A DNA stretch of 64,000 bases from Kaistella yonginensis (GTDB lineage Bacteria > Bacteroidota > Bacteroidia > Flavobacteriales > Weeksellaceae), in the NCBI RefSeq assembly GCF_030409525.1, contig NZ_JAUFQB010000002.1:1-64000 (forward strand), read 5' to 3'. Both the position numbers and the translations under genes were made by a program. Below, in pieces: positions 17,785 to 64,000 of this stretch. The notes beneath the pieces are model-generated. The model made no database searches and was not told the DNA's origin. It was given only the letters and a program-made list of their open reading frames with translations. Position 1 is the stretch's first letter; each line of letters starts with the position of its first letter.

Positions 17785-17890
17785 AGGAGCATTGCCTTTT
17801 ATGCTTTTTATAGAGACCTGTCCAGCTTTCCGCTCTATCTCTGGCTCGTCCGAAAGACGAGCCAGAGGATGCCGCTGCAATCTGGGCTAG
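17785..17890. repeat. Interspersed hairpin repeat, copy B
   Basis: It starts AGGAGC and ends GGGCTA. The core is a perfect 10-bp stem, CTGGCTCGTC with GACGAGCCAG, flanked by CCAGCTTTCCGCT and GGATGCCGCTGCAATC. The outer parts match copy C in reverse orientation, while the stem sequence differs completely. It sits in the gap between the deoxyhypusine-synthase-like gene and arfB. Confidence 0.65.
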
Positions 17891-17967
17891 AATAAAGCGT
17901 AGTTTGTCTTTCGAGCAAATCTCTATTTATAAGATTAAAAACAAACTCCTGTTTTTGCAACGAGCAG

Positions 17968-30571: not shown

Positions 30572-30699
30572 ATAAGATGTTATAAATTATTTTCTGAGCG
30601 AAACACCCGATCAGTCTGTAAATCATTAGGAATCATTATTTACAATCAAGGTAGCTATAAAACAAATCAAAGCTATGAAAATAGAAACTGAAAGTTATT

Positions 30700-30796
30700 C
30701 TAGCCCAGAGCGAAGCGGTATCCTTTTTTTTCAGAAAAAAAAGATATAGCGAAGAGCTGGACTGGTTTGGTATGAAGCAAAAATGGGGTTGCTCCA
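30700..30796. repeat. Interspersed hairpin repeat, copy C
   Basis: It begins TAGCCCAGAGCGAAGCGG and ends GCTCC. The core is an A/T stem (CTTTTTTTT with AAAAAAAAG). The outer parts TAGCCCAGA, AGCGG, ATCCT, AGATA, AGCTGGAC match copy B read on the other strand. Confidence 0.65.
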
Positions 30797-59955: not shown

Positions 59956-62547
59956 ATGAATTTAAATCAATATACCGTAAAATCACAGGAAGCTATTCAG
60001 AAAGCCCAACAAATCGCCATGGAATTCGGGAATCAGAGTATTGAGCCCCAACATTTATTGGAAGGTATTTTTCAAGTCGATGAGAATATCTCTCTGTTTT
60101 TGTTAAAGAAATCAGAGGCTGAATTGGCTTTGGTACGAGAGAGAAATCGCGAGAATATCGAAAAACTACCGAAAGTAGAAGGTGGAAATATTTACCTGTC
60201 CCAATCTGCCAATAAAGTTTTACTCGATGCGCCAAATGTGGCAAAAAAAATGGGCGATGAATTTGTAACCATCGAACATTTATGGCTGTCGCTTTTTGAG
60301 GTGGGTGCTGATGTTTCGAAAATGCTCAAAGATATGGGCATCACCAAAACTGGTTTAGAAATGGCCATAAAAGAACTGCGCAAAGGGTCGAAAGCAACTT
60401 CTGCAAGTTCCGAAGAAACCTACCAAAGTTTAAATAAATACGCCAAAAATTTTAATGACCTTGCCGCAGAAGGAAAATTGGATCCGGTGATTGGTCGGGA
60501 TGAAGAAATCCGCCGTGTTTTGCAAATTCTATCCCGAAGAACGAAAAATAATCCCATCCTAATCGGAGAGCCTGGCGTGGGTAAAACTGCGATTGCAGAA
60601 GGCATTGCCCACCGGATTATTTCCGGCGACATTCCTGAAAATCTCCAGGATAAAACTTTGTATTCTTTAGATATGGGTGCACTAATTGCGGGTGCAAAAT
60701 ATAAGGGTGAATTTGAAGAACGATTGAAATCGGTGATTAATGAAGTGATTAAGTCTGATGGACAAATTATTTTATTCATCGATGAAATCCACACTTTAGT
60801 TGGTGCGGGTGGTGGAGAAGGTGCAATGGATGCAGCGAATATTTTGAAACCTGCCTTAGCGAGAGGTGAACTTCGTGCCATTGGTGCAACCACTTTAAAT
60901 GAATATCAAAAATATTTTGAAAAAGATAAAGCCTTAGAAAGACGCTTCCAGAAAGTAATGGTGGAAGAGCCCGATACGGAATCTGCAATATCAATTTTGC
61001 GTGGAATTAAAGATAAATACGAAGCGCACCACAAAGTTCGCATCAAGGATGAAGCGATTATAGCTGCCGTAGAGCAATCTCAACGCTATATATCGGATCG
61101 TTTTTTACCGGATAAAGCCATCGATTTAATTGATGAAGCTTCTGCAAAATTACGAATGGAGATCAATTCAAAACCAGAAGCATTGGATGTTTTAGACCGA
61201 AAATTAATGCAGATGGAAATTGAGTTAGCCGCTATTTCTAGGGAGGGAAATGATATTAAAGTGGGTCATTTGAAAGAAGATATTTCCAAGGTTTCGGAAG
61301 AGCGAAATGAAATCAATGCGAAATGGCTCAAAGAGAAACAAAAATCAGAGGATCTAACTTCCATTAAGAAAGAAATTGAAGCACTAAAATTGGAAGCAGA
61401 ACGCGCTTCCAGAGCAGGTGATTATGCAAAAGTTGCCGAAATTCAGTACGGAAAAATTAAAGAAAAAGAAGCTGATTTACAAAAATTGGAGCTCGAAATG
61501 CAAAACCATCAAAATGAACTCATCAAAGAAGAGGTCACGGCGGAGAATATTTCTGAAGTTATTTCTAAATGGACGGGAATTCCTGTTACCAGATTAATTC
61601 AGTCTGAACGAGAAAAGTTACTCCATTTAGAAGACGAACTCCACAAAAGAGTTGTTGGCCAGGAAGAAGCCATAGAATCAGTAGCAGATGCAATCCGAAG
61701 AAATCGTGCAGGATTAAGCGATGAAAAAAAACCAATTGGTTCATTTTTATTCCTTGGAACAACCGGTGTTGGTAAAACGGAACTCGCAAAAGCGCTCGCA
61801 GAATATCTTTTTGATGATGAAAATAATATGACCAGAATTGATATGAGTGAATATCAGGAAAGACACTCTGTGTCGCGGTTGGTTGGCGCTCCCCCAGGAT
61901 ATGTTGGTTATGATGAAGGTGGGCAATTAACGGAAGCGGTGCGCAGAAGACCTTATTCTGTCGTACTTTTAGATGAAATTGAAAAAGCGCATCCCGATGT
62001 TTTCAACACTCTTTTACAAGTTTTGGATGATGGAAGATTGACCGATAATAAAGGTCGTGTGGTGAATTTTAAAAATGCTATTGTAATCATGACGTCGAAC
62101 TTAGGGTCTCATTTAATACAAGAAAATTTTGAAAATCTTACCGATGATAATGTTATTGAGGTCGTTGAAAAAACAAAAGAAGAGGTTTTTGCATTATTAA
62201 AGCAGACTTTAAGACCAGAGTTTTTAAATCGAATTGACGAGATTGTTCTCTTTCAACCTCTGAATAAAAAAGAAATAGGTAAAATTGTTAATTATCAGTT
62301 GCGTGGATTTAATGAAATGTTGGCTAAACGTGGAATCATTTTGACCGCTACAGAAGATGCAATTCAATATATTACCAACAAAGGGTACGATCCCAGCTAT
62401 GGTGCACGACCACTGAAGAGGGTTTTGCAGCATGAGGTTTTGAATAAATTATCAAAGGAAATTTTGGCAGGAGCCGTTAATGACGGCGATAGAATCACCT
62501 TGGATTATTTCGATGAAAGCGGGTTGGTCTTTCGGGCAATGGAATAA
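59956..62547 (+). CDS. clpB: ATP-dependent chaperone ClpB
   Basis: ClpB is a hexameric disaggregase that works with DnaK. Clear parts: the N-terminal repeat domain, AAA+ 1 with GEPGVGKT near residue 204, the coiled-coil middle domain (~400-530), and AAA+ 2 with GTTGVGKT near 600. The IGF/L loop for ClpP is absent, as expected for ClpB. Length 863 fits. The two candidate small RNAs lie downstream in the same direction. Confidence 0.97.
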   Translation: MNLNQYTVKSQEAIQKAQQIAMEFGNQSIEPQHLLEGIFQVDENISLFLLKKSEAELALVRERNRENIEKLPKVEGGNIYLSQSANKVLLDAPNVAKKMGDEFVTIEHLWLSLFEVGADVSKMLKDMGITKTGLEMAIKELRKGSKATSASSEETYQSLNKYAKNFNDLAAEGKLDPVIGRDEEIRRVLQILSRRTKNNPILIGEPGVGKTAIAEGIAHRIISGDIPENLQDKTLYSLDMGALIAGAKYKGEFEERLKSVINEVIKSDGQIILFIDEIHTLVGAGGGEGAMDAANILKPALARGELRAIGATTLNEYQKYFEKDKALERRFQKVMVEEPDTESAISILRGIKDKYEAHHKVRIKDEAIIAAVEQSQRYISDRFLPDKAIDLIDEASAKLRMEINSKPEALDVLDRKLMQMEIELAAISREGNDIKVGHLKEDISKVSEERNEINAKWLKEKQKSEDLTSIKKEIEALKLEAERASRAGDYAKVAEIQYGKIKEKEADLQKLELEMQNHQNELIKEEVTAENISEVISKWTGIPVTRLIQSEREKLLHLEDELHKRVVGQEEAIESVADAIRRNRAGLSDEKKPIGSFLFLGTTGVGKTELAKALAEYLFDDENNMTRIDMSEYQERHSVSRLVGAPPGYVGYDEGGQLTEAVRRRPYSVVLLDEIEKAHPDVFNTLLQVLDDGRLTDNKGRVVNFKNAIVIMTSNLGSHLIQENFENLTDDNVIEVVEKTKEEVFALLKQTLRPEFLNRIDEIVLFQPLNKKEIGKIVNYQLRGFNEMLAKRGIILTATEDAIQYITNKGYDPSYGARPLKRVLQHEVLNKLSKEILAGAVNDGDRITLDYFDESGLVFRAME

Positions 62548-62644
62548 TTAGGTTGAGCTGAATTAAAAATTATGTAATTTGAAATTTCAAAAAGGTGATA
62601 TAAATTTTTATGATAAATATTATGAAAAACTATCGTATTTAATT

Positions 62645-62768
62645 TTGAATTTCAAATAAAAAGATATTCCTTTGTGGTATTCTAAAACTGTAACAGGTAG
62701 AAGAATAAATTTTTTTTTCATCATTTGTGTTTTTAGAATCCACTTTCATCGGTGGATTCTTTTTTTTT
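62645..62768 (+). ncRNA. Candidate small RNA, unit 1
   Basis: Promoter-like TTG (62645-62647), 17 nt, TATTCCTTTG (62665-62674); then a hairpin TTCTA/TAGAA (62680-62702) with inner CTG/CAG; then a U-rich linker and a terminator AGAATCCAC/GTGGATTCT (62735-62760) with eight T. The expected RNA runs from about 62681 to 62768. Unit 2 has the same plan and an identical 3' half of ~55 nt. No coding potential is evident on the plus strand. Expression is not shown. Confidence 0.55.
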
Positions 62769-62822
62769 ACTTGTTATAGGAGTATGTCTATAATGAAAAT
62801 AGAAAAAAATCACTTAAAAATT

Positions 62823-62943
62823 TTGTAGTCTCATAAATATTATATTTCTTTGCTGCGTTCTAAAGCAATCAAATGCGATAGAACAAATTTTTTTTCATCA
62901 TTTGTGTTTTTAGAATCCACTTTCATCGGTGGATTCTTTTTTT
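62823..62943 (+). ncRNA. Candidate small RNA, unit 2
   Basis: TTG (62823-62825), 17 nt, TATTTCTTTG (62843-62852); hairpin GTTCTA/TAGAAC (62857-62884) with inner GCA/TGC; the same linker and terminator as unit 1 (stem 62912-62937). The inner hairpin pairs differ from unit 1 yet remain paired. The terminator ends at the stop codon of the convergent small gene (62942). Expected RNA about 62859-62943. Confidence 0.55.
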
Positions 62944-63139
62944 ATACAGAAAAATCAGTTTTTTCTTCTTCTAAAGTTACAAAGTCGGGAAATTCGATAA
63001 GTTTTAATTTTTTTTGACTCTCTATTTTCAAAACTTTTAATTTCGGATAATATTTTAGAATTTCTAAGCCTCTTTCTTGTAGATTTTTTTTTACTGAGCT
63101 GAATTGAGCTGTAGATCTTAAGGTGGCAAAATAAATCAT
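62942..63139 (-). CDS. Free-standing I9-like propeptide / subtilase inhibitor candidate
   Basis: The 65 residues (MIYFATLRSTAQFSSVKKNL, ... GLEILKYYPKLKVLKIES ... FPDFVTLEEEK) resemble the I9 propeptide fold: an initial strand, a helix, a YYP turn, strands and a final VTLEEEK-like edge, with no signal peptide. Such domains normally precede a subtilase and inhibit it. Here the small gene is separate and begins three bases after the subtilase stop codon, so the two are probably translated together. Stand-alone I9-like inhibitors are known in fungi and some bacteria. The match is by eye. Confidence 0.6.
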   Translation of the reverse strand: MIYFATLRSTAQFSSVKKNLQERGLEILKYYPKLKVLKIESQKKLKLIEFPDFVTLEEEKTDFSV

Positions 63140-63142
63140 AAC

Positions 63143-64000
63143 TCAATTTTTTTGAATTAAACCATTCCCAATATCTCGGTATTTCAGAGAAGTAATGCTT
63201 TTGGCACGATCCTCTAAAAGTTTCCAGATTTCAAGCGCAGAAAGTTGCGGGAATTCTTCCATATAAAGAGCTGCCATGCCAGAAACGTGGGGTGTTGCCA
63301 TACTTGTCCCGCTCATCAGCTTATAGCCAGACAGATTGCCTTTCTTCTGCGTATAGCTGCTAAAAATATCAACGCCTGGAGCAGCTACATTAATATTTCC
63401 ACCGTTTACTGCATTAATTCCACCATTAGAAAATGAAGCAACTCTCATTTGGCTATCAATCGCCGCAACAGCCATAAAACATTCAGAATTTGCAGGTGCA
63501 GAAACCGGTAAAGGTAAAGCTGGTCGTTTGCTATCGTTACCAGCAGCAGCAATTAATAAGCAATTACTCTCTAGGGCTCGTTTTCCGACCACATCAAATA
63601 ATGGAGAAGGAAATTCATTAAATTTAACTGGTGATGCCAGCGAAAGTGAAATGATTTTAAACTGTTTAGAAATTGCCCAATCAATCGCATCGATGATGCT
63701 AGAAGTAGAGCCTTTGCCATTATTATTTAGAACTTTTCCGATTTTAATGTTGCAATCTTTTGCTATACCATAGCGTTTTTGATTATCTAACCTGCAGTTT
63801 CCCGCCGCAATTCCTACGCAATGTGTACCGTGACCCAAAGGATCCTTGTCCCAATCCTCTCCTTCGATAAATGATTTACCCTCGATGTTTCTCCCTATAT
63901 AATCGGGATGAGACGCCTCAAAACCAGTATCTAATATACAAAGATCAATTCCTTTTCCGGAAAACTGTGTTTTATCGATTCCGATTGCTTTTAAGCCCCA
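63143..64000 (-). CDS. Subtilase (S8 peptidase), 5' end beyond the window
   Basis: The frame is open to the window edge, giving 285 residues. The triad is complete: aspartate in LCILDTGF, histidine in LGHGTHCVG, serine in SGTSMATPHVSG; the oxyanion asparagine is in IAAAGND. The visible end lacks a T9SS domain and the protein stops shortly after the catalytic core, which favours a cytoplasmic or simple subtilase, but the N-terminus, with any signal or propeptide, is missing. The small I9-like gene follows at once. Confidence 0.9.
   Translation of the reverse strand, partial: WGLKAIGIDKTQFSGKGIDLCILDTGFEASHPDYIGRNIEGKSFIEGEDWDKDPLGHGTHCVGIAAGNCRLDNQKRYGIAKDCNIKIGKVLNNNGKGSTSSIIDAIDWAISKQFKIISLSLASPVKFNEFPSPLFDVVGKRALESNCLLIAAAGNDSKRPALPLPVSAPANSECFMAVAAIDSQMRVASFSNGGINAVNGGNINVAAPGVDIFSSYTQKKGNLSGYKLMSGTSMATPHVSGMAALYMEEFPQLSALEIWKLLEDRAKSITSLKYRDIGNGLIQKN

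Follow-up and report, generated by a model that had tools for sequence, protein, structure and literature searches.

Two tandem units downstream of clpB

The window analysed here, a stretch of 64,000 nt of Kaistella yonginensis DNA, carries a gene that we take from its sequence to encode ClpB, followed by two short units (Table 1). These units are offset by 178 nt and are identical from the T-run through the terminator. Sequence and folds confirmed what a first-pass annotation had read there, namely promoter boxes with 17-nt spacers, a 5′ hairpin, a U-rich linker and one terminator per unit, and a 3′ part common to both. The promoter consensus is TTG/TAnnTTTG, and the boxes upstream of homologous units are arranged as in the window. 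Each unit is predicted to be transcribed from its own promoter and to end at its intrinsic terminator.

Table 1. Positions of the clpB gene and of the elements of both units in the window
Feature	Coordinates	Strand	Basis and remarks
clpB gene, upstream of units	59956..62547	+	clpB match within ~1.5 kb of unit in 17/24 unit-bearing genus genomes
Unit 1 promoter boxes	62645..62674	+	read directly; TTG 62645-62647, 17 nt, TATTCCTTTG 62665-62674
Unit 1 5′ hairpin, family-type register UAUUCU/AGAAUA	62678..62707	+	local fold, -4.5 kcal/mol; absent from full-length minimum-energy fold
Unit 1 core, T9-CATCATTTGTG-TTTTT	62710..62734	+	sequence and homologue alignment
Unit 1 intrinsic terminator	62735..62768	+	fold; stem covaries in homologues
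Unit 2 promoter boxes	62823..62852	+	read directly; TTG 62823-62825, 17 nt, TATTTCTTTG 62843-62852
Unit 2 5′ hairpin, GUUCUA/UAGAAC with inner GCA/UGC	62857..62884	+	minimum-energy fold
Unit 2 core, T8-CATCATTTGTG-TTTTT	62888..62911	+	sequence and homologue alignment
Unit 2 intrinsic terminator	62912..62943	+	fold

RNA folding of unit 2 yielded the 5′ hairpin and the terminator (z -4.4, with none of 200 shuffles as good), while unit 1 reached z -3.0 (1/200 shuffles as good). The TTCTA/TAGAA hairpin that had been assigned to both units belongs to the minimum-energy fold of unit 2. In unit 1 this register (with CTG/CAG) exists at -2.8 kcal/mol but is not the best one, as UAUUCU/AGAAUA with ACU/GGU reaches -4.5 kcal/mol over the same 35 nt; the full-length minimum-energy fold of unit 1 contains neither register. 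Of 24 distinct class-A hairpins, 15 folded locally better than shuffled loops at the 5% level; the other nine, that of window unit 1 included, did not stand out from them.

On the minus strand past unit 2 (62942-64000), a 65-aa ORF and a subtilase-family (Peptidase_S8) gene converge on the units, and no Peptidase_S8 gene was found beside the units of relatives among the genus loci examined. Elsewhere in the window lie two copies of Flavo-1 (RF01705), likewise a small structured RNA of Flavobacteriia, at 17815-17892 (-) and 30698-30767 (+), with 64.7 and 59.9 bits; at 62500-63100 Flavo-1 gave no match even at E up to 5. Rfam release 15 yielded no match at gathering score to the window units or to those of four related loci, and permissive searching at the units returned chance-level scores only. 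In the literature searched, no described small RNA from Weeksellaceae turned up, and the string CATCATTTGTG led, among the matches listed, to other subjects only. As far as Rfam and the literature could be checked, the RNA family is new, but its kind is already known.

A conserved core and covarying helices in Weeksellaceae

The conserved part of the units is the linker core UUUUUUUUCAUCAUUUGUGUUUUU, which is almost invariant in an alignment of 65 units while both flanks vary, and which stays free of pairing in seven of nine minimum-energy unit folds. This alignment derives from 92 sites read in the genus, 67 of them with a terminator, after L010 and L113 had been dropped as chance. Terminator stems change within it (pair 39-59 being CG in 27, GC in 24 and UA in 7 of the 65), and window-type units with the hairpin TTCTAATGC...AAGAATAAA account for 27 sequences. 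In alignment A1 the inner stem was misaligned by MAFFT, and RNAalifold folded the U-run onto the 5′ arm, so A1 was left out of the inner-pair counts.

The 18-mer of the core, TTTTTCATCATTTGTGTT, has seven exact sites in the genome of origin and 13 with at most two mismatches, compared to one for the reversed pattern. Four of the exact sites consist of core plus terminator (the two in the window, C11:5773 and C3:164205), and the remaining three are the complement in other contexts. A covariance model built from 27 units found exactly the same four places. In the C11 unit the 5′ hairpin and the terminator stem differ but the core is unchanged, and the C3 unit sits in the 3′ UTR of a 74-aa lipoprotein-like ORF without a Pfam match. 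Copies occur as stand-alone sRNAs, near clpB or beside DUF3810, or as 3′ UTR modules.

Unit 2 was matched (E ≤0.001) in 24 of 25 genomes of the same genus, its own included, and in 0 of 15 genomes of other families at E 0.001. Within a flank of up to about 1.5 kb, a clpB match was absent from seven of the 24 (L054, L055, L056, L061, L062, L063 and L067/L110). Tandem arrays of two to three units recur among genus genomes, some with decayed copies. Arrays with normal units also hold siblings that are diverging or decaying (L055 1396, L065 1378; L048 1372, L049 1346, - strand): cores of variant sequence (AATTTCAACATTTGTG) followed by good terminators, and degenerate ones that lack a terminator.

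Allowing one mismatch, the 18-mer occurred in 155 of 197 family genomes and in 27 of 33 genera, a count that pools units and complement sites, compared to seven matches of the reversed control in all 197. Of the 246 sampled genomes of the order, 36 have the exact 19-mer; these all belong to the 39 Weeksellaceae genomes, and none of the 207 genomes from other families has it. Among the matches listed, the core bearers were Chryseobacterium, Kaistella, Epilithonimonas, Cloacibacterium, Soonwooa and Cruoricaptor, and 117 loci from these matches held 116 sites with a terminator and six without. In 20 loci of four Chryseobacterium-type genomes, a script scored 20 of 23 sites as units with terminator, and L258, one of the remaining three, was unit-like by eye; many terminator stems and 5′ parts in these loci are unrelated, and some sites lie in 3′ UTRs. 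Some Epilithonimonas units have a TTTG box directly before core and terminator. Class-wide, the covariance model matched 3 of 149 genomes, being the genome of origin, one of Chryseobacterium type and a weak one elsewhere.

Several further elements were noted. In a genome of another family, a core-like TTTTTTTTACATCATTCAGTTTTTATA with a terminator lies just past a stop codon (L309 1534-1590; model E 3.3e-4), and is perhaps a distant cousin or chance. Epilithonimonas locus L306 (1414-2061) holds three intergenic units of ~160 nt, each with the imperfect palindrome AAGTATCA...TGATACTT and about three core-like copies 38 nt apart, and L180 (4121-4586) of the same genus is an intergenic array with core-like copies every 38-39 nt; no terminators were seen in these two arrays. 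A core with terminator also lies on a predicted provirus contig (L352 11918-11939, -).

The main unit type among the listed family loci has the hairpin CCTTGA...TCAAGG in Chryseobacterium, GCTTTTGAG...CTCAGGAGC in Epilithonimonas and GCTTTC...GAAAGC in Cloacibacterium. At all 13 loci chosen for a check, from several genera, the next gene was an opposite-strand homologue of the Pfam DUF3810 gene. Both helices covary: over 36 distinct sequences 88.6% of cells were paired, compared to 82.6% after shuffling (0/500 as high) and 34-54% with slid partners. Nine pairs of this class had changes on both sides, and 52 cells did so versus 21.8 in shuffled data. Over 22 arm pairs, counted separately, pairing held in 129 of 154 cases versus 110 after shuffling (maximum 121 in 2000).

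These homologues bear on how the locus had first been read. Two units alone cannot show the covariation of inner pairs that had been claimed for them, but the homologues do, and homologues that lose the pairing were looked for and not found, with paired cells above shuffled ones in this second class. As the letters of hairpin and terminator change in homologues but all four elements (core, terminator, 5′ hairpin and promoter box) are kept, the proposal of sibling small RNAs sharing a 3′ part was of the right kind; it was too small in scope, since the shared core recurs at other loci and across the family. We conclude that the two units are very probably sibling sRNAs within a conserved structured RNA family.

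Short minus-strand frames do cross both units, and a conserved short peptide encoded there would offer another explanation. However, no such peptide was found over 69 distinct units: in 39 of these the NTNDE frame lacks a start codon, and the MMKK frames vary in length between 8 and 97 aa and continue differently among those displayed, making this reading hardly credible. It is likewise very improbable that the units are a spreading repeat that does nothing for the cell. The multiple and tandem copies within genomes and the Epilithonimonas arrays would fit such a repeat, but the constant place of one class beside the DUF3810 gene at 13/13 loci of several genera, the compensatory changes, and the absence of a blastn match to the units in plasmid and phage collections argue against it. 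The covariation already points to purifying selection or a conserved function. The terminator that directly follows the core in nearly all clear units could further suggest that the core tunes only termination or 3′-end processing, with no action in trans. This we regard as unlikely, because independent genes, each with promoter boxes of its own and a covarying 5′ hairpin, persist across genera and because the ~20 fixed core letters go far beyond what a terminator needs.

Complement sites and candidate sponges

The units would then be tandem genes for ~90-nt trans-acting sRNAs of one multicopy Weeksellaceae family (Kaistella, Chryseobacterium, Epilithonimonas and relatives), in which the 5′ hairpin, varying between members, probably stabilises the RNA or allows its individual control. 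The working part would be the core left unpaired between that hairpin and the terminator, probably a long base-pairing seed. Its complement AACACAAAUGAUGAAA is predicted to lie over the start codons of a restricted group of mRNAs, of which many encode exported proteins; pairing in cells would block their translation.

At C58:14536 the genome of origin has a 27-nt perfect complement, placed in the leader of a gene for a 275-aa secreted-type protein; a second, imperfect complement site lies at the start of that gene. No long gene begins at any of the three exact 18-base sites outside units in this genome. Across the family, the pattern CACAAATGATGAAANNNB, built to skip most units, gave 99 listed sites in 44 of 120 genomes versus 6 for the reversed control. 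From the genus and 120-genome family searches we compiled 95 distinct CACAAATGATGAAA sites (90 loci, chosen by pattern and not at random), which fell into 17 units, 21 coding sites, 13 gene starts, 6 sites with an opposite-direction terminator and 38 with other or no clear context. With pairing to start regions of SusC-like transporter mRNAs as a mark of the FopS family of Bacteroides, no susC was identified among the 13 gene-start sites. Related proteins from more than one genome recur at complement sites (L281/L287/L359, L353/L357, L365/L366 and L289/L362).

With a looser terminator test, an opposite-direction terminator followed the complement at 11 of 93 sites compared to 3.3% of random positions (binomial p 0.0003), an excess that persisted without two hairpins inside genes (L358 and L388; p 0.004). 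In the same test a unit-direction terminator was found at 26 of 93 sites versus 1.7% at random positions, and an opposite-direction promoter box together with a terminator at 3 of 93 versus 0.28%. The Kaistella loci L399 and L401 have TATCTTTG immediately ahead of the complement, which a terminator follows, and a comparable layout is shared by L291 and L360, whose two genomes belong to one genus; all four have a TTTG box or box-like sequence upstream. Judged by their layout, these four look like sponge RNAs, and such short RNAs with the complement beside their own terminator would act by titrating the units. Since they look like sponges, they speak for base pairing. In other bacteria, 3′ UTR-derived sRNAs carry a seed beside the terminator and sponge RNAs titrate sRNAs, a similar layout to the one that is predicted here from sequence alone.

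The core as a generic complement of start regions was not supported as a general rule. Over 375 own-genome starts the mean duplex energy was -8.65, versus -8.10 ± 0.47 for 60 shuffled cores, and 38 starts reached -12 or below versus 26.6 ± 10 for shuffled cores. Of 30 loci that were read for the shorter complement AAAACACAAATGNV, three have it at a gene start. This complement outnumbered its reversed control in the core-bearing genera g24 (54 to 4) and g26 (49 to 6), and hardly in g1 (14 to 7); among core-free genera, g32 (5 to 7) and g37 (10 to 23) showed no excess, but g44 did (20 to 1), so that AAAACACAAATGNV counts do not settle the matter. In 420 sampled own-genome ORFs, the first ATG was marked by ACACAAATG in three and by ATGATGAAA in two.

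A type I toxin-antitoxin arrangement was also considered for a 68-aa membrane ORF (C11:41339) whose start is complementary to the core, and was rejected as it is not widespread: in the 120-genome family sample a full-length match was confined to the own genome, with three weak partial ones, and similar ORFs occur in G006 and G010. An AAA ATPase gene ends in GGATTCTAA, the stretch that extends the core match at this ORF. Separately, at L007 (~1500), L290 (1500) and L301 (1500) the core complement lies inside coding sequence, as (K/E)NTNDE in one protein of three genera.

Candidate protein partner and known systems

Hfq was found in none of the 16 genomes searched and in 5 of 14 control genomes, and an RRM_1 protein was present in 154 of 197 family genomes. 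The core (median of at least two sites) occurred in 15 of 20 genera with RRM versus 3 of 13 without (Fisher p 0.005, kinship ignored). RRM is not sufficient for the core: five genera have RRM without it (for example all nine g32 genomes), and in the own genus the same holds for G020 and G111. Three genera carry the core but no RRM; each is represented by a single genome with 2-4 matches, and L279 among them shows repeats unlike a normal unit.

These data bring in another reading, in which the core is a protein-binding site, most likely for an RRM-domain protein with a role in protecting or sorting the 3′ ends of RNAs, and any pairing falls to the variable 5′ halves; this would be why small RNAs and 3′ UTRs have the core in common. 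The failure to find Hfq, the prevalence of RRM_1 and its tracking of the core by genus would agree with this, as would an invariant core that is long for a seed and present in otherwise unrelated RNAs, including 3′ UTRs. Moreover, RbpB, an RRM-1 protein of Bacteroides, is reported to bind FopS sRNAs (PMC11697453). However, the association ignores kinship, five RRM genera are without the core, and short RNAs carrying the complement beside a terminator are unexpected from a protein site alone. We consider a protein site the less likely reading, and lean with moderate confidence towards base pairing with complementary sites as the main mode of the core. An RRM-domain protein may nevertheless bind the core or help pairing.

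The closest concept is FopS of Bacteroides thetaiotaomicron, with 14 members, a seed in the single-stranded 5′ part and pairing near start codons (PMC11697453), together with GibS of that species (PMC7366714). Both FopS and the Weeksellaceae units are multicopy sRNA families with a shared unpaired seed or core and an intrinsic terminator, in Hfq-free Bacteroidota with an RRM-1 protein. The four own-genome units, and the core left unpaired in 7/9 folds, agree with several copies sharing an unpaired seed and a terminator. Most Weeksellaceae units differ in having a 5′ hairpin and the core beside the terminator, whereas the FopS seed is described as 5′ and single-stranded. FopS pairs near start codons; 13/95 complement sites here lie at gene starts, and the targets and the RRM partner are candidates. 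The comparison with FopS and GibS (R1 seed) is by description, and the units' model had no strong match outside Weeksellaceae in the class sample.

Taken at its widest, the proposal is of an Hfq-free network built on one ~20-nt core, with sibling sRNAs and 3′ UTR modules, complement sponges, array decoys, exported-protein targets and an RRM partner; as a whole we put it forward tentatively, and it is rather doubtful that all its parts hold. For annotators, the gain is an RNA family with a simple signature. A near-invariant multicopy core with candidate targets, candidate sponges and a candidate protein partner would open RNA regulation without Hfq to direct testing beyond the gut Bacteroides.
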